NCBI RefSeq assembly: GCF_028369105.1
Contig: NZ_JAQNDO010000001.1
Span: forward strand, 2,721,711-2,785,710
Origin: Polyangium mundeleinium
GTDB taxonomy: Bacteria; Myxococcota_A; Polyangia; Polyangiales; Polyangiaceae
Direction: 5' to 3'
Length of the DNA stretch: 64,000 nucleotides
The position numbers and the translations under genes are program-made. The notes below the pieces were generated by a model. The model made no database searches. It was not told the DNA's origin and worked only from the letters and a program-made list of their open reading frames with translations. This document shows positions 28,428-41,093 of this stretch, piece after piece; position 1 is the first letter of the stretch, and each line of letters opens with the position of its first letter.

Positions 28428-30482
<2,055 letters not shown>

Positions 30483-32118: not shown

Positions 32119-33162
32119 TCAATGGTCGACGCGCGCGCCGAGCCACCGCGAGAGCAGCGGCCATACCGTGTGCGTCGAGCGGCTGCCCATGATCAGATCG
32201 ATGTGACCTTGCGGGAAGACGCGGTACGTCTTGTCCCCCGATCGGCTCGATCGATAGGCCGGCTCGACCGACGCGGGCGGCGCGAGGTCGTCGCTCTCGC
32301 CCGCGACCACGAGAAGCGGCACGTCCATCGCCTCGAACCCCTCGACGAACCCGGACAATCCGCCGAGCCGGTGCCCGCTTTGCCGCGCCTCCGCCGCCGC
32401 GAGGAACATGTTCCGGAGCACCGTGATGCTCCCGCTATCCATCGCCAGCGACATGTGCTGCGAGAGCACCACGGGCTCCATCGATCCGGGACGGAAGCCG
32501 CGGATCGGCAGTGGAAACACGGGACTTTCGACGAGCACGCGCGCGAGCCGGACGACCTCGCCGATGGCGCGCAGCCCGAGCGCCCCGTGGCCGAACGACA
32601 TCCGCCGGTCCACGGCGAGCAGCAGGTGGCCGGCCAGCGTGAGCGGCAGCGAGCCGCGCGTGAAATGGTAGGGACTGCCGAGCGTCACCACGCCGGCCAC
32701 CGCGCCGTGGGCGAGCGGCGCCGCCGCGTAACTGACGAGCCCGCCGAGCGAGTGTCCCACGAGGAAAACGGGCTGCGGCCCGGCCAGCCGTTGCACCTCT
32801 TCGAGCGCCCAGGGGACGTCCTGCTTGACGAACTCGCTCACGTCGGTGGGCCGCCGCGCGCCGAGGTGTCGGGAACGGCCGTGGCCGCGCAGGTCCAGGT
32901 TGAAGACGTCGAAGCCCTCGCGGGCCAGGTAGTTCGACAGGCTCCGGGCGGGCAGGTGCCAGGCGTACCGATTTTGCCCGTAGCCGTGAATGAGCAGCAC
33001 GCTCCCCCGCGTCCCGCCGAGCTCCGCCGAGCGTTTTCTCACCATCGCCAGCGGAATTCCATCCTCGGCTCCGCCGCCCCGCACGACGCACAGCTCCTTG
33101 ACGAAACGCCCGCGCGCGTCGCGATCGATCGCTTGTTCGACCCGGAGTTGGTGCAGGATCAT
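32119..33162 (-). CDS. alpha/beta hydrolase
   Basis: 347 residues from an ATG giving MILHQLRVEQ; longer frames upstream lack homology. The fold is shown by VLLIHGYGQNRYAW (oxyanion loop), LDLRGHGRSR, the nucleophile elbow VGHSLGGLVSY, a late VPLLVVAGESDDLAPP (acid) and FPQGHIDLIMG (His). Likely an esterase or lipase-type hydrolase; substrate unknown. No signal peptide, so cytoplasmic. The 283 bp between it and the divergent outer-membrane protein gene hold the promoters for both, with no further gene seen. Confidence 0.85.
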   Translation of the reverse strand: MILHQLRVEQAIDRDARGRFVKELCVVRGGGAEDGIPLAMVRKRSAELGGTRGSVLLIHGYGQNRYAWHLPARSLSNYLAREGFDVFNLDLRGHGRSRHLGARRPTDVSEFVKQDVPWALEEVQRLAGPQPVFLVGHSLGGLVSYAAAPLAHGAVAGVVTLGSPYHFTRGSLPLTLAGHLLLAVDRRMSFGHGALGLRAIGEVVRLARVLVESPVFPLPIRGFRPGSMEPVVLSQHMSLAMDSGSITVLRNMFLAAAEARQSGHRLGGLSGFVEGFEAMDVPLLVVAGESDDLAPPASVEPAYRSSRSGDKTYRVFPQGHIDLIMGSRSTHTVWPLLSRWLGARVDH

Positions 33163-33445
33163 CGGTGCCCTCCGATTACCTACAAGAATGCGCCGAGCAT
33201 GCAACGCGCCGAGCACTTCCCGGACATTGAGGCCGCGCGCGCGCCGTCGTTTCCAAGGAAAACCGGGAAGCCGCGCGGGTGAGGCCCCGAAATGGATGGC
33301 ACGTGGGTCTTGTTGGGTTGGGAAGATCACGTCGCCGCGCATGTCGGTGGGGTTGGGGTGTTGCGGGGGGCTTTCAAGACGGGCGGGCTCGTGTACTGTC
33401 TCGGGCGTCCTTCTCTCTTCGAGCACACCGACGAAAGAGCGCCCC

Positions 33446-34351
33446 ATGTCCCGCATGGCCCTGCTTACCCGCTTTGCCCTCTTGACCCTCGGCGCGTCCC
33501 TCTTCGTGGCCCGCACCGCGTATGCGCAGCCCTCCGAGGACGGGTTCGACAAGGACGCCGAAGATACGATGGCCGGAAAGGCGAACGACAAGGAGGAGGC
33601 GGCGGCCGGCGACAAGATGCCGGGCGAGAAGGAGAAAAAGAAGGAGGACAGCGGCGACGTCGGGATCTGGGACACGAAAGAGGATCCCACGAAGGCGTAC
33701 CGTTACGTCGGCCTCCGGTACCGCCACGCCATCATCCCGAAGGCGATCCTGAACCTCTTCACGGACGGCGGCGCCACGGTCGGGGTGCCGATGGGGGGCC
33801 TCGAGTTCGGCACGCGACGTGACCGCCTCGAATACATTTTCTCGCTCTCGTACGCCGACTACTCGAAGGGCGAGATGCTCTTCAAAGGCAAGGGCCAGCC
33901 GGTCACGGCGTACGAGCGCGTGCAGAGCGATCTCGCCGTCATTTACGGCAAGGTCGAGATCCTCTACGAGGTGCCGCTCGACAGCCGCAGCCGCTTCTCG
34001 TTGCTCTTCGGCGGCGGCGTGGGCATCGGCGGCGTCATCGGCGACCTCCATCGGCGGCAGGTCTACCCGGGCTCGGGCAGTGATCCCGCGGTGCCCTCGC
34101 AGTGGAACGACTGCACGGCCTTTGGCGAGCCGAACGCCACCTACTGCGACGTCGACAACGGCCACTTCGGCGACTACGCCGAGCCGAGCTGGGCGAGCGG
34201 CGGATCGAAGCCGTTCATTTTCCCGTGGATCGCGGTGCCGCAGGTGAGCTTCCGCTACAAGCCCATCAAGATGCTCCAGGCACGCGCGGACGTGGGCTTC
34301 GCCATTAGCTCGGGCGTCTACTTCGGCGCCAGCATCGACTACATCCTCTGA
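33446..34351 (+). CDS. predicted outer-membrane beta-barrel protein
   Basis: 301 residues. The signal peptide MSRMALLTRFALLTLGASLF ends at AYAQP. Residues about 25-70 are a charged Lys/Glu/Asp linker (GEKEKKKEDSG). After that come alternating amphipathic strands with aromatic girdles (YRYVGLRYRHAIIP, LEYIFSLSYADY, YGKVEILYEVPL, FSLLFGGGVGIGGV), a Cys-containing loop, and the final strand YFGASIDYIL. A C-terminal hydrophobic strand is the usual barrel-assembly signal. Similar proteins are common in myxobacteria; role unknown. The giant kinase-regulator gene starts 23 bp later, so they may share a transcript. Confidence 0.75.
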   Translation: MSRMALLTRFALLTLGASLFVARTAYAQPSEDGFDKDAEDTMAGKANDKEEAAAGDKMPGEKEKKKEDSGDVGIWDTKEDPTKAYRYVGLRYRHAIIPKAILNLFTDGGATVGVPMGGLEFGTRRDRLEYIFSLSYADYSKGEMLFKGKGQPVTAYERVQSDLAVIYGKVEILYEVPLDSRSRFSLLFGGGVGIGGVIGDLHRRQVYPGSGSDPAVPSQWNDCTAFGEPNATYCDVDNGHFGDYAEPSWASGGSKPFIFPWIAVPQVSFRYKPIKMLQARADVGFAISSGVYFGASIDYIL

Positions 34352-34374
34352 ACGAAGAGGAGCCCAGGGGAACG

Positions 34375-37300
34375 TTGCAGCTCCCGCCCCGATACGAGCC
34401 CATCGCGCCCCTTGGCAAGGGCGGCGGCGGAGAGGTGTGGTCGGCCAAAGACCGCATCACCGGCGCGACCGTGGCCGTGAAGGTCCTCGCCGAAGGCGCG
34501 AACGAGGCAGAAATGCTCGCCCTCGTGCGCGAAGCCGTGGCCCTCTCCGGCCTCGAAGGCCTCGGCGTGCCGCGCATCCTCGGCTTCGGGCGCCTGCCGA
34601 ACAGCCCCCGCGCCTACCTCGTGCGGGAGCTCGTCGTCGGCAAGAGCCTGGCCGCGCGATTCGCGGAACCGGACGAGCCGCTGGAGACCCTCGCCGCCAT
34701 CGCGCAGGCCGCCGACCAGCTCACGCGGCTGCACCGCGCGCTCTTGCTGCACGGGGACCTCAAGCCCGCGAACATCATCGTCGGGCCCTTCGGCAAGGCG
34801 ACGCTCGTCGACCTCGGGCTCGCGGCGAACTTCCGCGACGGCGGCGAGCGCCCGTCGGGCCTCACGCCGCGGTATGCCGCGCCCGAGCTGCTCACGGGCG
34901 CGCCGCTCGGCGTTCGCGCGGAGATCTACGCCCTCGGCGTCACGCTGCGCGAGGCCCTCGTCGCGGTGGGGCCTCGGCTCGATCCGGCCGTCGTCGCGGC
35001 GCTCGAAGAGGTCGAGCGTCGCGCCACCGCGGCCGATCCGACGAGCCGCTTTCCAAGCGCGGACGAGCTCGCGAGCGCCATCCGCCGCGCTGCGTCCTTG
35101 CCGATGCCCGAGGCGTTCGCTCCGCGCGACGCGCTCGTCTGGCCGATCGTCGGCCTCGACGAGCACGCCGCCGCGCTCGACGCGCAGATCGAGGACCTGC
35201 GCCCGGGCGGCGGCATCGTGGTCACGGGCCTGCCGGGTGCCGGCAAGAGCACGTTGCTCCGGCGCGTCGCGTGGTGGCTCGGCGTGAAGGGGCGCGGTGT
35301 GGCCTGGGTCGAGGCTGGGCTCGCGCCCGATCCGGGGCAGGCGATGGACCTCGAGCTCGCAGGAGCCGAGGAGCCCGAGGGCGCGATCGTCCTCGTGGAC
35401 GACGCCGATCGCCTCGCGAAACCGGACGTCACGCGCCTCGCCGCGCTGCGCGAGGCCGGCGCCCGCGTCGTCGTCACCTTCGACCCGGAGCGCCTGCCGA
35501 ACCTGCCGGGCCCGACGCTCGAACTCTTCGCCGTTCCGCCGCTCGACGAGGCGCGCGCGCGTGACCTCGTGCGCTCGGCGATCCCCTCGCTCGGCGACGT
35601 CGTCGCGGATCACGTCGCGCGCCGCGCGGGCCACTTGCCCGGCAAGATCCGCGCGATCGTCGAGGCGATCGCGCGCGCCCCCGTCGCGAGCGCCGCGGAC
35701 GTCGATCGCCTCCTCGCCGAGGAGGACGAGCGCGGCACCGATCGCGAGCGCGCGATGAAGCTGCTCGATCGGGGCCATGTCGACGAAGCCGCCGAGGTGC
35801 TCGCGCGCCTCGAAGACGACCCCTCGCCGGCCGTCGCGATCGCCCGCGCGCGCCTGTTCACGAGCCGCGGCGACGCCCTGCGCGCGATCGCCGAGCTCGA
35901 ACGCGTGCAGGACGAAGCCCTCGCGGCCGACGCCGAGATCGCCGCCTCGTATTGCCTCCACGCGGCGCGCGCGCTCCTCCGCGCCGGTGACTACGCGGGC
36001 GCCGAAACCCAGGCCGGCGCCGCGGCCGAACGCACGGGCCTCCCGGCTGCCGCGGACGACGCCGCACCCTTGCCGCGCGCGGAGGGCCGCCGCGCGCTCT
36101 CCATGCTGGCGATCGCCGCCGACGCGCTCGCCGTCTCCGGCCTCGCGCAGAGCTTCTCCTCGCGGCACGACGACGCGAAGCGCACGCTCACGCGCGCCGT
36201 CCGCCTCGCGCGTGGGGTCGGCGGCGAGCCGCGCATCCTCTCGGTCGCGCTCGGCTCGCTCGCCTTTGCGCTCCAGCGCGACGATCAGCTCGACCCCGCG
36301 AAGGCCGCCTACGAAGAAGCGCTCTCCGCGGCCGAGCAAGCGGGCGATGCGGGCAGCGTGGCCACGACGCGCTTGAACCTCGCGGGCATCGCCAAGGCGC
36401 AAGGCGACCTCGCGGCCGCGCTCATGCACCTCGAAGCTGCGGTCGACATGGGGCGCCGCTCGGGCCGCGTCCCCACGCTTCGCCAGGCGCTCTTGAACCT
36501 CGCGAACCTGGAGCTCTACCTCGGCCGCCTCGCGCGGGCGCGTGTCTCCATCGACCAGCTCGCGCTCCAGCGCAGCGAGCTCGGCCCGAGCCAGCGCGCG
36601 CAGCTCCTCTCGCTCGAAGCCGAGCACGCCGCGCGCTCGGGGGATCCCGCCGCGGCCGAGCGCCTCTGCGGCGCCTGCGCCGAGAGCTGGGAGAGCCTCG
36701 GCCGGGGCGTCGACGCGGCCGAGGCGCGGCTCGAACGTGTGATGATCGCCCCCGCGACGTCCGGCGAAGGCGCGCGTGAGCTCGACGCCGAGATCGAGCG
36801 TGCCTCGGCGGCGCTCGGGGGTGGCTCGGCGCATCGCCCGCTCCTCTCGCTCGCGCGCGCCCGCGTGGCCACGTTGCGCGGCGACGAGCGGCAGGCCGCG
36901 GCGCACTGCGAGGAGGCGCTCGAAGCGGCGCGCGCCTCGGGCCAGAAGGACTTCATCGCCCGCGCCCTCGAAGCACGCGCGACCCTGCACGAGGACGGCG
37001 GCAAGCCCATGCTCGCGCGACGCGATCGGGAGGCCGCGCTCGCCGTGCTCGAAGAGATCGCCTCGGTCTTGCCGCGCGACCTGCGTGAGGTCTTCTGGGA
37101 CGACCCGCGCCGCCGCGCCCTGCGTGCGCTCTGCGTGCCCTCCGTGCACACCCCGCAGACCGCGACGCCCTCTCCGCCGAACGCCTCGCCATCGAGCACG
37201 CTCGCGGCGCCGCGCAAGGCCCCCACGGAGGAACGCCTCGCGCGCATCCTGGAGATCAACCGCGCCATCGCGGGCGAGGTTGATCTCGGGCGCCTGCTGG

Positions 37301-38910
37301 AGAAGGTCACCGACCACGCGATCGCCCTCCTCGGCGCGGAGCGGGGTTTTGTCATCCTCAAGAGCACGCAGCCGCGGGACGAGGCCGATCCCACGGCGGC
37401 GCTCCCGTTCGCGCTCTCGGTCCACGCCTTCCGCGGACGCGAGGGCGACGACGCGCATGCGCGCTTCTCGCAGTCGATTGCCGAGCGTGTCGTCCACATC
37501 GGCGAGCCGATCGTCACGGTGAGCGCGCGCGAGGACGCCCGCATGGCCGGGTACGTCTCGGTCCACCAGCTCATGCTCCAGTCGATCGCGTGTGTGCCCA
37601 TCCGCGCGCGGGGCGGCGAGGTCATCGGCGCGCTCTACCTGGAGACACGCCTCCGCCCTGCGATGGGCTTCACGGACGAGCTCCCCACGCTCGTCGCGCT
37701 CGCCGACCAGGTGGCGATCACCATCGAGACCGCGCGCCTCGTCGGCGAGAACGCGCGCCGCGCGCGGGAGCTCGAAAAGAAGAGCGCGGAGCTCGAACGG
37801 GCGAACGGCGACCTCGAAGCGGCCCGCGCCGAGCTCGAAGAGCTGCTCGGCCAGCGCACCGAGGAGCTCAAGGCCACGAAGCGCGACCTCCGCTCGGCCC
37901 GCGCGGTCATCAAGGGGCATTTCGGCTACGAGGGCCTCGTCGGCCGCAGCGAGGCCATGCGCCGCGTCTACGCGCTCATCGACCGCGTCAAGGACACGGA
38001 CATCCCGGTCCTCGTCATCGGCGAGAGCGGCACGGGCAAGGAAGTCGTGGCGCGGGCCATTCACAACGCCGGCCCGCGCGCCAAGAAACCTTTCGTGGGC
38101 ATCAACGTCGGCGCCATTCCCGAGCACCTCCTGGAGAGCGAGCTCTTCGGCCACGTGCGAGGCGCCTTCACCGGCGCCGATCGGGATCGCCGTGGCCTCT
38201 TCCGCGAGGCCGAGGGCGGCACGATCCTCCTCGACGAAATCGGCGAAATGCCGCCGAAAATGCAGGCCGGGCTCCTCCGTGTCCTCCAGGAAAAGCTCGT
38301 CCGCCCGGTCGGCGGCGCGCGCGAAGAGCCCGTCAACACGCGCGTCATTGCCGCGACCCACCGGGACCTCGTGGCGATGACCGCGGCTGGCACCTTCCGC
38401 GAGGATCTCCTCTACCGCTTGCACGTCGTCGAGGTCCGCGTCCCGCCTTTGCGCGAGCGCATCGAGGACATTCCGATCCTCATCGACCATTTCCTCGGCA
38501 TCTTCGCGGCTCGTTATGGCCGTGAGCGCCGGAGCGTCTCGCGGGCTGCGCTTCGCCGGCTGATGGGGCATGGCTGGCCCGGCAACGTGCGCCAGCTCGA
38601 AAACGTCCTCTTGAATGCGTGGGTCCTCTCGGATCAGGCCGAGCTCGAACCCGAGGACTTCGAGCTCCCGGAGGCCCGCCTCGCCCCGCGCCCGCCGCCC
38701 CCGCCGGAGAGCCTCCGGGAAGGCCCTCAGCGCGCCTCGCCCGAGCCCTCGCGCAAGCTCTCCTCGCTCGAAGCGCACAAGGCCGACGAGCGCGAGCGCA
38801 TCCTCGCGGCGCTCCAGGCATCCAACTGGAACCGCGTGAAGGCCGCGCGCCTCGTGGGATTGCCCCGCCGCACGTTTTATAGACGACTCAAGGAGTACGG
38901 AATTCAATGA
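34375..38910 (+). CDS. Ser/Thr kinase-AAA-TPR-GAF-sigma54 activator fusion protein
   Basis: 1511 residues from a TTG with AGGGG just upstream. In order: a PknB-like kinase domain (about 6-235) with LGKGGGGEVW, VAVKVL, LHGDLKPANI (His126) and VDLG in place of DFG; an ATPase domain with GLPGAGKST near 285; a long TPR-like region (about 460-930); a GAF domain (about 955-1120); a coiled coil; a sigma-54 AAA+ domain with GESGTGKE near 1217, GAFTGA near 1262, and FREDLLYRL; and a Fis-type HTH (about 1470-1511) ending GLPRRTFYRRLKEYGIQ. The kinase is non-RD (HGD). It should sense a signal, possibly phosphorylate, and open sigma-54 promoters. A small gene overlaps its stop. Confidence 0.92.
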   Translation: MQLPPRYEPIAPLGKGGGGEVWSAKDRITGATVAVKVLAEGANEAEMLALVREAVALSGLEGLGVPRILGFGRLPNSPRAYLVRELVVGKSLAARFAEPDEPLETLAAIAQAADQLTRLHRALLLHGDLKPANIIVGPFGKATLVDLGLAANFRDGGERPSGLTPRYAAPELLTGAPLGVRAEIYALGVTLREALVAVGPRLDPAVVAALEEVERRATAADPTSRFPSADELASAIRRAASLPMPEAFAPRDALVWPIVGLDEHAAALDAQIEDLRPGGGIVVTGLPGAGKSTLLRRVAWWLGVKGRGVAWVEAGLAPDPGQAMDLELAGAEEPEGAIVLVDDADRLAKPDVTRLAALREAGARVVVTFDPERLPNLPGPTLELFAVPPLDEARARDLVRSAIPSLGDVVADHVARRAGHLPGKIRAIVEAIARAPVASAADVDRLLAEEDERGTDRERAMKLLDRGHVDEAAEVLARLEDDPSPAVAIARARLFTSRGDALRAIAELERVQDEALAADAEIAASYCLHAARALLRAGDYAGAETQAGAAAERTGLPAAADDAAPLPRAEGRRALSMLAIAADALAVSGLAQSFSSRHDDAKRTLTRAVRLARGVGGEPRILSVALGSLAFALQRDDQLDPAKAAYEEALSAAEQAGDAGSVATTRLNLAGIAKAQGDLAAALMHLEAAVDMGRRSGRVPTLRQALLNLANLELYLGRLARARVSIDQLALQRSELGPSQRAQLLSLEAEHAARSGDPAAAERLCGACAESWESLGRGVDAAEARLERVMIAPATSGEGARELDAEIERASAALGGGSAHRPLLSLARARVATLRGDERQAAAHCEEALEAARASGQKDFIARALEARATLHEDGGKPMLARRDREAALAVLEEIASVLPRDLREVFWDDPRRRALRALCVPSVHTPQTATPSPPNASPSSTLAAPRKAPTEERLARILEINRAIAGEVDLGRLLEKVTDHAIALLGAERGFVILKSTQPRDEADPTAALPFALSVHAFRGREGDDAHARFSQSIAERVVHIGEPIVTVSAREDARMAGYVSVHQLMLQSIACVPIRARGGEVIGALYLETRLRPAMGFTDELPTLVALADQVAITIETARLVGENARRARELEKKSAELERANGDLEAARAELEELLGQRTEELKATKRDLRSARAVIKGHFGYEGLVGRSEAMRRVYALIDRVKDTDIPVLVIGESGTGKEVVARAIHNAGPRAKKPFVGINVGAIPEHLLESELFGHVRGAFTGADRDRRGLFREAEGGTILLDEIGEMPPKMQAGLLRVLQEKLVRPVGGAREEPVNTRVIAATHRDLVAMTAAGTFREDLLYRLHVVEVRVPPLRERIEDIPILIDHFLGIFAARYGRERRSVSRAALRRLMGHGWPGNVRQLENVLLNAWVLSDQAELEPEDFELPEARLAPRPPPPPESLREGPQRASPEPSRKLSSLEAHKADERERILAALQASNWNRVKAARLVGLPRRTFYRRLKEYGIQ

Positions 38911-39203
38911 CGACCCAGCCCGGTAACCTCTCCGCATTCGTGGACGGCGTCGCGCTGCCCGAGGAAGCGGCACGCAACCTTTGGACGCGCTTCAGCGAAT
39001 GGATGGGCGAGCACAAGGGTGACATGGAGGGGTTCGGAAAAATCAACGGATACACGCAGATCACGCCCGAATACAGAGGCGGGCGGGCCGTGTTGATCGC
39101 GTATACGAAGGAGCCGCCGCCCGCGCCGCCGCAAACGAAGCCGGCGGGGAAGGGGGGCGGAGCGCGTCGAGGCGGTCGGGCGGGTGGCGGCGGAAGACGA
39201 TAA
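38907..39203 (+). CDS. small protein coupled to the kinase-regulator
   Basis: 98 residues. The ATG lies in the ATGA of the preceding stop, so it is translated with the giant regulator. It has an N-terminal globular-looking part (LSAFVDGVALPEEAARNLWTRF, then SEWMGEHKGDMEGFGKINGY) and a basic Pro/Gly/Arg-rich tail. No family recognised. Coupling suggests a partner or regulator of the 1511-residue protein, which is inference. Confidence 0.55.
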   Translation: MTTQPGNLSAFVDGVALPEEAARNLWTRFSEWMGEHKGDMEGFGKINGYTQITPEYRGGRAVLIAYTKEPPPAPPQTKPAGKGGGARRGGRAGGGGRR

Positions 39204-39620: not shown

Positions 39621-39701
39621 GGCCCGCGCAACGTAGCTCATTCTTCGAACCCTCGTGCGAATTTCCTGGAATCGTCGCCCCACGCCTGGAATCGTTCGAG
39701 C

Positions 39702-41093
39702 ATGAACGAGAGCCTTCGTTCCCTGTCCGGTGCGCTCGGGTTGCTCCTCTCCGTCGCGGCGTGCAGCCAGGGCTCTTCCTCCGCGCCGACGCGAACGGCG
39801 GGCCCGCCTCCGGGCACGTGGAGCGGCGTTTCCCAGGCCTCTCCCCAGCAGGCCGAGGTTTACCGCCCTGCCGCGCCTCGGTATTTCGGCAGCGCGTTCA
39901 TCTACCTCGCCAACAACGTCTCGCGGCAGCTCGTGGGCTTCGACGTCGTCGACGGATTGGCCGTCATGGAAGGCGACATGATGCTCGGCCCGGCCACGCT
40001 CGTGCCCTTCCGGTATGGCACGCCGCCGCGCCCCACCGGAGACATCAAGGGCGCGATGGGCCTCCAGAGCCGCACGGACCTCTGGCCTCGGGGCGAGATC
40101 CCTTATGTGATCGACGCCTCCGTCCCCCCCGCCACGGTCGAAGGGATTGGCTGGGCCGTCTCCCACGTGAATACCACGCAGCTCCGGCTCCGGCCCCGCG
40201 CGGGCGACGCCGATTACGTCGTCTTTCGCAACAGCGGCGAGGGCAGCGGGTGCAGCTCGTACGTCGGCCGCATCGGGGGCCCCCAGGAAATCCAGGTCGC
40301 CGACTGCGGTCGCGGCAGCATCGTCCACGAAATCCTGCACGCGGCCGGCTTCTTCCACGAGCAATCGCGCAATGACCGCGACCAGTACGTCACCATCGTG
40401 TGGGACGAGATCCCGACGCAATATCGGAGCGACTTCGAGCAGAGGGGCGGCGTGGGGCAGGACATCGGGCCCTACGATTACCAGAGCATCATGCATTACT
40501 CGTCGCGCGCGTTCAGCCGCACCGGCAGGCCCACGATCGTCCCCCGGGACCCGAACGCCAACATCGGCCAGCGCGAGGGCCTCTCCCAGCTCGATCGGTC
40601 TGCGATCCAGGTGCTTTACGGGACCGGCGGGGCGCCGGAGCTTCCCACACCCCAGCCGAGCCTGCCTTTCCCCGGCACGACCTTCCCGTTCCCCACGGCG
40701 GGGCTCCCTTTGCCGAGCCTGCCTTTCCCCATCCCCTCGTTCCCATTCCCCACCACGCAGCCCGCCCCTCCTCCGACGCCCCCGCAGGTGCCGGCCACGC
40801 CGGTCTCGTTCACCGGCAACTATTCGAGCACCCGAGGGCCGATGCAATGCTCGGAAAACGCCTCGATGGTGGCTTGTAGCTTCCAGGACGGAGGCGCGCC
40901 GGGCCGCCTCGATTGCGTGAAGGACGCGGGGAGCGTGCAGCTCTCCTGCACCTGGATGACGTTTCTCCCGCGCCCGGGCGCGGGCCGCGCCGCGCTCCGG
41001 CGTAGCTCCACGGCGGACCCGAACCTCGGCGGGACCTGGGGCAACCTGCAGAACGAGACCGACGGCGGTCGGTGGGATGCGACGCGGCAATGA
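39702..41093 (+). CDS. astacin-type (M12A) metalloprotease lipoprotein
   Basis: 463 residues. The signal LGLLLSVAACS gives a lipoprotein with Cys near 21. The catalytic domain (about 110-310) has the full astacin zinc site HEILHAAGFFHE (His209, Glu210, His213, His219) and the Met-turn SIMHYSSRAF. It is preceded by YVIDASVPPATVEGIGWAVSHV. Then comes a linker of LPFP, FPFP and PLPSLPFP repeats (about 315-365), and a C-terminal beta-rich domain with two Cys pairs. It should digest protein outside the cytoplasm. Prokaryotic astacins are less common than animal ones; the Phe/Pro linker is unusual. Confidence 0.9.
   Translation: MNESLRSLSGALGLLLSVAACSQGSSSAPTRTAGPPPGTWSGVSQASPQQAEVYRPAAPRYFGSAFIYLANNVSRQLVGFDVVDGLAVMEGDMMLGPATLVPFRYGTPPRPTGDIKGAMGLQSRTDLWPRGEIPYVIDASVPPATVEGIGWAVSHVNTTQLRLRPRAGDADYVVFRNSGEGSGCSSYVGRIGGPQEIQVADCGRGSIVHEILHAAGFFHEQSRNDRDQYVTIVWDEIPTQYRSDFEQRGGVGQDIGPYDYQSIMHYSSRAFSRTGRPTIVPRDPNANIGQREGLSQLDRSAIQVLYGTGGAPELPTPQPSLPFPGTTFPFPTAGLPLPSLPFPIPSFPFPTTQPAPPPTPPQVPATPVSFTGNYSSTRGPMQCSENASMVACSFQDGGAPGRLDCVKDAGSVQLSCTWMTFLPRPGAGRAALRRSSTADPNLGGTWGNLQNETDGGRWDATRQ

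Follow-up and report, generated by a model that had tools for sequence, protein, structure and literature searches.

We analyzed a 64,000-nucleotide stretch (the window) of the 13.25-Mb genome of Polyangium mundeleinium. On its plus strand, positions 34375..38910 hold one open reading frame, with a TTG start at 34375, a stop at 38908-38910, and no internal stop, that encodes a regulator of 1511 amino acids. A possible ribosome-binding site, AGGGG (34366..34370, plus strand), was read directly from the sequence 4 nt 5′ of the TTG, and this stretch is much alike across Polyangium relatives. A Pfam search with the full chain, in which every match exceeded its own gathering score, returned Pkinase, nSTAND_NTPase5, TPR_12, GAF, Sigma54_activat with its lid, and HTH_8, in that order. 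An earlier sequence-only reading had placed a kinase, a P-loop ATPase, TPR-like helices, a GAF sensor, and a σ54 activator with a Fis-type HTH on one polypeptide. Our search recovered these domains in the order named, and the HGD, DLG, and GAFTGA motifs described there are present. The observation of a single multidomain chain, which is also seen in orthologues, is confirmed.

The gene directly upstream (33464..34351, plus strand; start set at 33440 for neighborhood searches) encodes a probable secreted or outer-membrane protein, its localization guessed from the sequence. It is preceded by a gene on the minus strand for an alpha/beta hydrolase (32119..33042; Pfam), whose exact start is uncertain, the frame being open further upstream, and by a plus-strand PrkA serine kinase homologue (28428..30482; Pfam). 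Downstream, the start of a gene for a 98-amino-acid protein with a Gly/Arg/Lys-rich C terminus (38907..39203, plus strand) overlaps the regulator stop in the sequence ATGA. Neither the secreted protein nor the 98-amino-acid protein had a Pfam match at E 0.01.

PrkA, three small genes, the hydrolase, the secreted protein, the regulator, and the 98-amino-acid gene occur together in six Polyangium assemblies (the window, L021-L024, and L075). Outside Polyangium, 22 loci had a usable flank, defined as at least 2.6 kb upstream (L027, with 0.4 kb, was set aside); because the fetched flanks differ in length, the counts are lower bounds. A hydrolase homologue was present at 17 of these 22 loci, a secreted-protein homologue lay directly upstream at 14 of 22, and PrkA fell within the fetched flank at 12 of 22 (11 upstream, 1 downstream). 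At L072, all three were absent within 8.2 kb upstream. The small downstream gene had been read as translationally coupled to the regulator. Its ATGA overlap, which recurs at L025 and in each of the six Polyangium assemblies studied, the window among them, is compatible with such coupling but does not prove it, and the gene fails as a general part of the locus: of the 19 non-Polyangium loci whose downstream flank reached 1 kb or more, only 4, among them L025, have a homologue there.

Beyond this gene, the window contains an astacin-type metalloprotease gene (39681-41093; E 5e-44), also found in the fetched flank of three of five Polyangium relatives' loci. Between 42200 and 42460, frames read as short repeated units (such as RLQALQTPLGVY), which suggests a small tandem-repeat array.

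We also searched for σ54 promoters, which the sequence-only reading had proposed to look for near the gene. Sites of the -24/-12 type, allowing up to two mismatches, were not in excess in the window: we found 7 against an expectation of 13.7, and 7 or more occurred in 98 of 100 shuffles. A weighted scan of 25 loci, taking the best six sites of each, found no shared site place adjoining the regulator in distant loci. We rejected a weak site common to Polyangium species; it falls within the open frame of the hydrolase, in strongly conserved sequence immediately before the assumed start, and may be coding. At three loci, a near-consensus -24/-12 element lies 44-48 bp before the aligned start of a lipoprotein gene (-4577 in L062, -4350 in L063, and -5726 in L069, counted from the start of the regulator); L067 has a weaker element. 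Upstream of the lipoprotein homologues (L076-L102), 15 of 27 had a site scoring at least 13.3 of 15.8, with simple base shuffles as the control. The best site upstream of the homologue in the host genome (L086) scored 12.6 of 15.8. Because L086 has no comparable site, we did not take the lipoprotein gene as a target of the regulator.

Domains of the regulator

The Ser/Thr kinase domain (34393..34962, plus strand) was identified by a Pkinase match to residues 7-196 (E 2e-22, 80.3 bits versus a gathering score of 31.7), by phmmer alignment to StkP/PknB kinases, which are the best solved sequence relatives of the front of the regulator, and by residue invariance. The match spans positions 1-192 of the 263 in the profile, and the C-lobe probably extends to about residue 240. 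In the phmmer alignments, which are weak in this respect, the kinase appears shorter between the helices usually called F and H. Its motifs are K36, E53, H126-G-D128, K130, N133, D146-L-G, and A169-P-E171, making it a non-RD kinase. K36, E53, H126, G127, D128, K130, N133, D146, G148, T164, and the APE motif do not vary among the 25 aligned sequences, one of which is the window protein; DLG is found in 24 and DFG in one. Four further orthologue loci also have HGDxKPAN. By its Pkinase score and by the catalytic Lys, Glu, Asp, Asn, and DFG-type Asp, all kept in 25 of 25, the domain belongs with the Hanks-type Ser/Thr kinases.

The invariant catalytic residues, together with purifying selection, lend support, though only indirect support, to a working enzyme. 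Non-RD kinases with a short activation segment generally need no activation-loop phosphorylation. As the regulator's kinase is non-RD and its activation segment short, it is most likely active without this modification. Across the 24 full-length orthologues, no more than ten Ser/Thr positions are fully conserved. Two of them, T164 and S228, are in the kinase, S292, S1218, and T1220 belong to P-loops, and T1266 is part of GAFTGA. The remaining candidates, S1032 and S1062 (GAF), T1328 (AAA+), and T1500 (HTH), are not obviously regulatory.

Pfam, the structural model, and Foldseek place a STAND-type P-loop region at 35131..35694 (plus strand; residues about 253-440), with the sequence GLPGAGKS at 285-292. 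The nSTAND_NTPase5 match covers residues 278-364 (E 3e-10, 40.4 bits versus a cut-off of 34). While this P-loop score is that of a STAND NTPase, the Walker-A lysine is not a group-wide feature: among 25 sequences the position is K in 9, including the window protein, R in 14, and V in 2. Because this lysine is so often replaced, a nucleotide-binding domain or degenerate scaffold is more likely than a conserved hydrolase. We infer that the chemistry of the kinase and of the AAA+ domain has been selected, and that nucleotide hydrolysis by the STAND-like domain is not a general requirement.

A helical TPR superhelix follows at 35740..37098 (plus strand; residues about 456-908), recognized by TPR_12 (E 1e-10) and by the helices of an AlphaFold2 model. 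This model, of residues 1-940 from ten sequences, had a mean pLDDT of 73.8; the superhelix was mostly well predicted and the STAND region fairly so, but the kinase part (pLDDT mostly <50) was too poor for use. The best PDB match in Foldseek (E 1.1e-8) was 6mfv, a STAND protein that carries tetratricopeptide repeats; the overall rmsd was large, at 24.7 A over 719 columns. The matches after 6mfv were mainly TPR proteins, with Avs3 also among them. STAND proteins have been described as activated by an inducer bound to a sensor domain (PMC4381067).

The GAF domain (37282..37725, plus strand; residues 970-1117; Pfam E 1e-10) is joined to the AAA+ domain by a linker (37735..37932, plus strand; residues 1121-1186) of coiled-coil-like composition, which, judged by eye, may form a coiled coil. 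The σ54 AAA+ domain and lid occupy 37936..38664 (plus strand; residues 1188-1430), with matches to Sigma54_activat (residues 1188-1354; E 3.5e-67, 225.7 bits versus a gathering score of 20.2) and AAA_lid_14 (residues 1360-1430; E 2e-20). This domain contains the Walker A motif GESGTGK, whose checked G and K are unchanged in 24 of 24 full-length sequences. It also contains GAFTGA (38161-38178, plus strand), which has S for A in one of these sequences and Y for F in two. The chain ends in a Fis-type HTH (38788..38898, plus strand; residues 1472-1508; HTH_8, E 1e-13, 51.1 bits versus 22). The Sigma54_activat score, GAFTGA with Walker A, and the Fis-type HTH are together those of a σ54 activator.

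NifA, NtrC-type, and FleQ activators are the best solved sequence relatives of the back of the regulator. The best NCBIfam match was NifA (residues 953-1511, E 9e-108), but we rejected identity with NifA, since the score of 361.4 bits is below the equivalog cut-off of 528.85.

Orthologues and one-chain relatives

Full-length orthologues, 40-98% identical, occur in many genomes, and the nearest relatives by regulator protein are Polyangium species (95-98% identical). The genome collection yielded nine loci with full-length relatives free of stops. Further full-length relatives were found at 14 of 15 loci, the exception, L061, being cut by a contig end, and four additional loci align end to end in one segment each. 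Comparison with four Polyangium assemblies gives a dN/dS of 0.08-0.11 over the full chain. Because intact relatives are found in independent assemblies and the whole chain has this low ratio, chance or assembly error is very unlikely. That two or more genes were joined through sequencing error or over-reading is close to impossible; we found no point in support of such an artefact, which is already refuted by the same full chain in Polyangium and distant assemblies and by purifying selection on each Pfam domain.

Against the same four assemblies, dN/dS was 0.08-0.15 for the kinase, 0.11-0.18 for the STAND part, 0.04-0.13 for the TPR part, 0.03-0.12 for GAF, 0.03-0.04 for AAA+, and 0-0.07 for the HTH. 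The linkers at 906-952 and 1431-1462 are looser (0.13-0.37), and the short coil at 1121-1186 gives erratic values (0.06-0.67), dS being very low in one pair. Compared with the window protein, 18 distant orthologues are on average 73% identical in AAA+, 64% in the HTH, 61% in the kinase, 58% in GAF, 46% in the TPR part, and 38% in the STAND part. Conservation of the regulator is highest in AAA+ and the HTH.

A search with the kinase-STAND part (residues 1-442; E <= 1e-35) gave matches in 15 of 188 Myxococcota genomes, all in the window's own family, which contributes 16 of the listed genomes; none of the 172 phylum genomes sampled outside the family matched. Within the family, the same part was found in 91 of 98 genomes, 57 of 59 good-quality genomes, and 47 of 48 genera, some of the frames being short, probably at contig ends. 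There was one match in 90 of the 91 positive genomes and two adjacent partial matches in the other. Of 72,556 plasmid records, 140 matched the regulator query, none with one place covering 80% of it; in the 20 plasmid matches listed, at most one third of the query was covered, at the kinase end. PADLOC matches (25 of 36 listed) were to kinase and CARF-AAA-HTH models, on the kinase or the AAA+/HTH part.

The fusion is less exceptional than the sequence-only reading had suggested. There are 75 matches to PF00158 in the host genome, 67 of them above 130 bits, and at least 4 of these 67 have an N-terminal kinase. Our kinase check covered long frames: of five frames of more than 1200 amino acids, a kinase is present in the window's own, L036 (1538 amino acids), L037 (1423), and L039 (1474); the fifth, L040 (1253), was read only. 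AAA_16 scored above its cut-off in L036 and below it in L039, and was absent from L037. GAF was matched in L036 and L037, with no match in L039. When L036 was the query (E <= 1e-30), 7 of 188 phylum genomes matched, four in the family (among them G094, whose match is simply the window gene's own orthologue) and three in two other families of the order. Of the matched proteins outside the family, three were scanned, which come from two genomes belonging to a single family; each has Pkinase, AAA_16, GAF, Sigma54_activat, and HTH_8, so that the same architecture exists in another family of the order. In an AAA+ tree of 27 sequences, five orthologues group together (98/98). The tree places L036, L037, and L039 nowhere firmly and speaks neither for nor against a single fusion origin of the kinase-σ54 proteins.

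In all six one-chain relatives that we compared, the motif reads HGD, not HRD. Five of these lack some other motif residue, and L111 keeps all. L039 is without the Asn of the kinase motifs, L112 and L113 are without the Lys of HGDxKPxN, L037 lacks APE, and L036 and L112 have DLS in place of DLG. The losses in L036, L037, L039, L112, and L113 are of single motif residues, as if some of these kinase domains were turning into pseudokinases. Judged from these comparisons, the design is found more than once in the order, and the kinase is unusually intact in the orthologue group of the window gene.

With kinase motifs damaged in most one-chain relatives, a non-catalytic role of the fold is possible. 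The regulator's own kinase could likewise bind ATP or a partner and switch conformation without phosphotransfer. The five relatives that lost a motif residue yet keep their Pkinase match, and the similar drift of the STAND domain, speak for this reading, which we nonetheless consider unlikely: all catalytic residues checked are invariant in the 25 sequences of the orthologue group, and binding alone would not obviously require this.

Another candidate in the host genome, L038, was rejected as a single frame of 1410 amino acids. It consists of two adjacent genes (L038:1910-6139; G000 C1 about 767409-771638) for an HRD-type Ser/Thr kinase, with a membrane segment guessed by eye, and a σ54 activator with an FHA domain, and is a two-gene counterpart of the one-chain design.

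Proposed working and relation to known systems

We propose, with a probability of about 0.6, that the regulator is a cytosolic σ54 bacterial enhancer-binding protein (bEBP) with an exceptionally large input half, in which the N-terminal half and the GAF domain gate the AAA+ domain in cis and the kinase acts on itself or on a partner. The Fis-type HTH would anchor the regulator at an enhancer. GAF domains bind small ligands, and a GAF ligand, a partner bound to the TPR part, or both would lift a restraint on the AAA+ domain. The freed domain would assemble and remodel σ54 polymerase, while the kinase would phosphorylate its own chain or a protein bound to the TPR half. Ser/Thr signaling and promoter opening would then be set in one molecule. 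The cis gating of the ring follows from the architecture, and the proposed kinase activity from residue conservation. Most bEBPs are described as regulated in cis by N-terminal domains (PMC7057263).

The proposed regulator resembles several known systems. It shares GAF, AAA+ with GAFTGA, and the Fis-type HTH with GAF-type bEBPs such as NifA and NorR, but has about 950 additional residues at its front, comprising the kinase, STAND-like, and TPR parts. Both NifA and NorR carry GAF domains. Pairs of a kinase and an FHA-EBP form a two-gene class in myxobacteria. Such pairs, of which L038 is one in the host genome, also tie Ser/Thr kinases to σ54; in L038 the HRD-type kinase and FHA activator are separate chains, whereas the regulator is one. 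HstK-type cyanobacterial dual kinases (Pkinase, GAF, HisKA) likewise have a Ser/Thr kinase and GAF on one chain, and these proteins also carry an AAA/TPR middle part. Their output is a histidine kinase, whereas that of the regulator is a σ54 activator with an HTH; no HisKA or HATPase match was found at its C terminus at E 0.01. STYK-GAF-HisK "dual kinases" have been described (PMC1262709, PMC2176072).

PknK of Mycobacterium tuberculosis resembles the regulator in joining a Ser/Thr kinase to a STAND ATPase (PMC9045387). The cited passages on PknK mention no GAF or σ54 part, both of which the regulator has (PMC9045387). An M. tuberculosis kinase with a MalT-like C-terminal part, given no name in the passage cited, has also been noted (PMC1262709). 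PknK suggests a different working, in which the regulator would be a kinase-STAND hub that mainly phosphorylates other proteins, for example the downstream 98-amino-acid protein, the nearby PrkA, or other regulators, with the σ54 part as only one output. In the published description, PknK is a STAND-family STPK with a role in transcriptional regulation, and its kinase domain phosphorylates response regulators in vitro (PMC9045387). In many relatives, the genes for PrkA, the hydrolase, and the secreted protein have remained close to the regulator. However, the neighborhood is uninformative on substrates; the 98-amino-acid gene was near only 4 of 19 non-Polyangium orthologues, and PrkA was within the fetched flank of only 12 of 22. 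We regard a hub as rather improbable.

Returning to the cis-gated bEBP, its kinase may also work at the promoter. Anchored by the HTH, it would phosphorylate proteins there while the AAA+ ring opens σ54 promoters; candidate targets may be σ54 polymerase, a co-regulator, or its own ring. This is a long shot. Among bacterial Hanks kinases, YabT offers a precedent for activation that depends on DNA (PMC3708118).

Ser/Thr kinases are very numerous in myxobacteria, which also possess many σ54 activators (PMC3696898, PMC8538405). Our literature search found no description of a kinase and a σ54 activator on one chain, but one may be in print. Kinase-GAF-histidine kinase chains, the kinase-STAND protein PknK, and GAF-bEBPs are already known. 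To our knowledge, the meeting of the Ser/Thr kinase and σ54 networks in myxobacteria is mostly inferred. With both on one chain, their link becomes testable by one point mutation. Should the kinase prove inactive, the protein would remain a good example of a kinase fold put to regulatory use. If instead the kinase does act at the promoter, one family-wide core regulator would couple Ser/Thr signaling to promoter opening.
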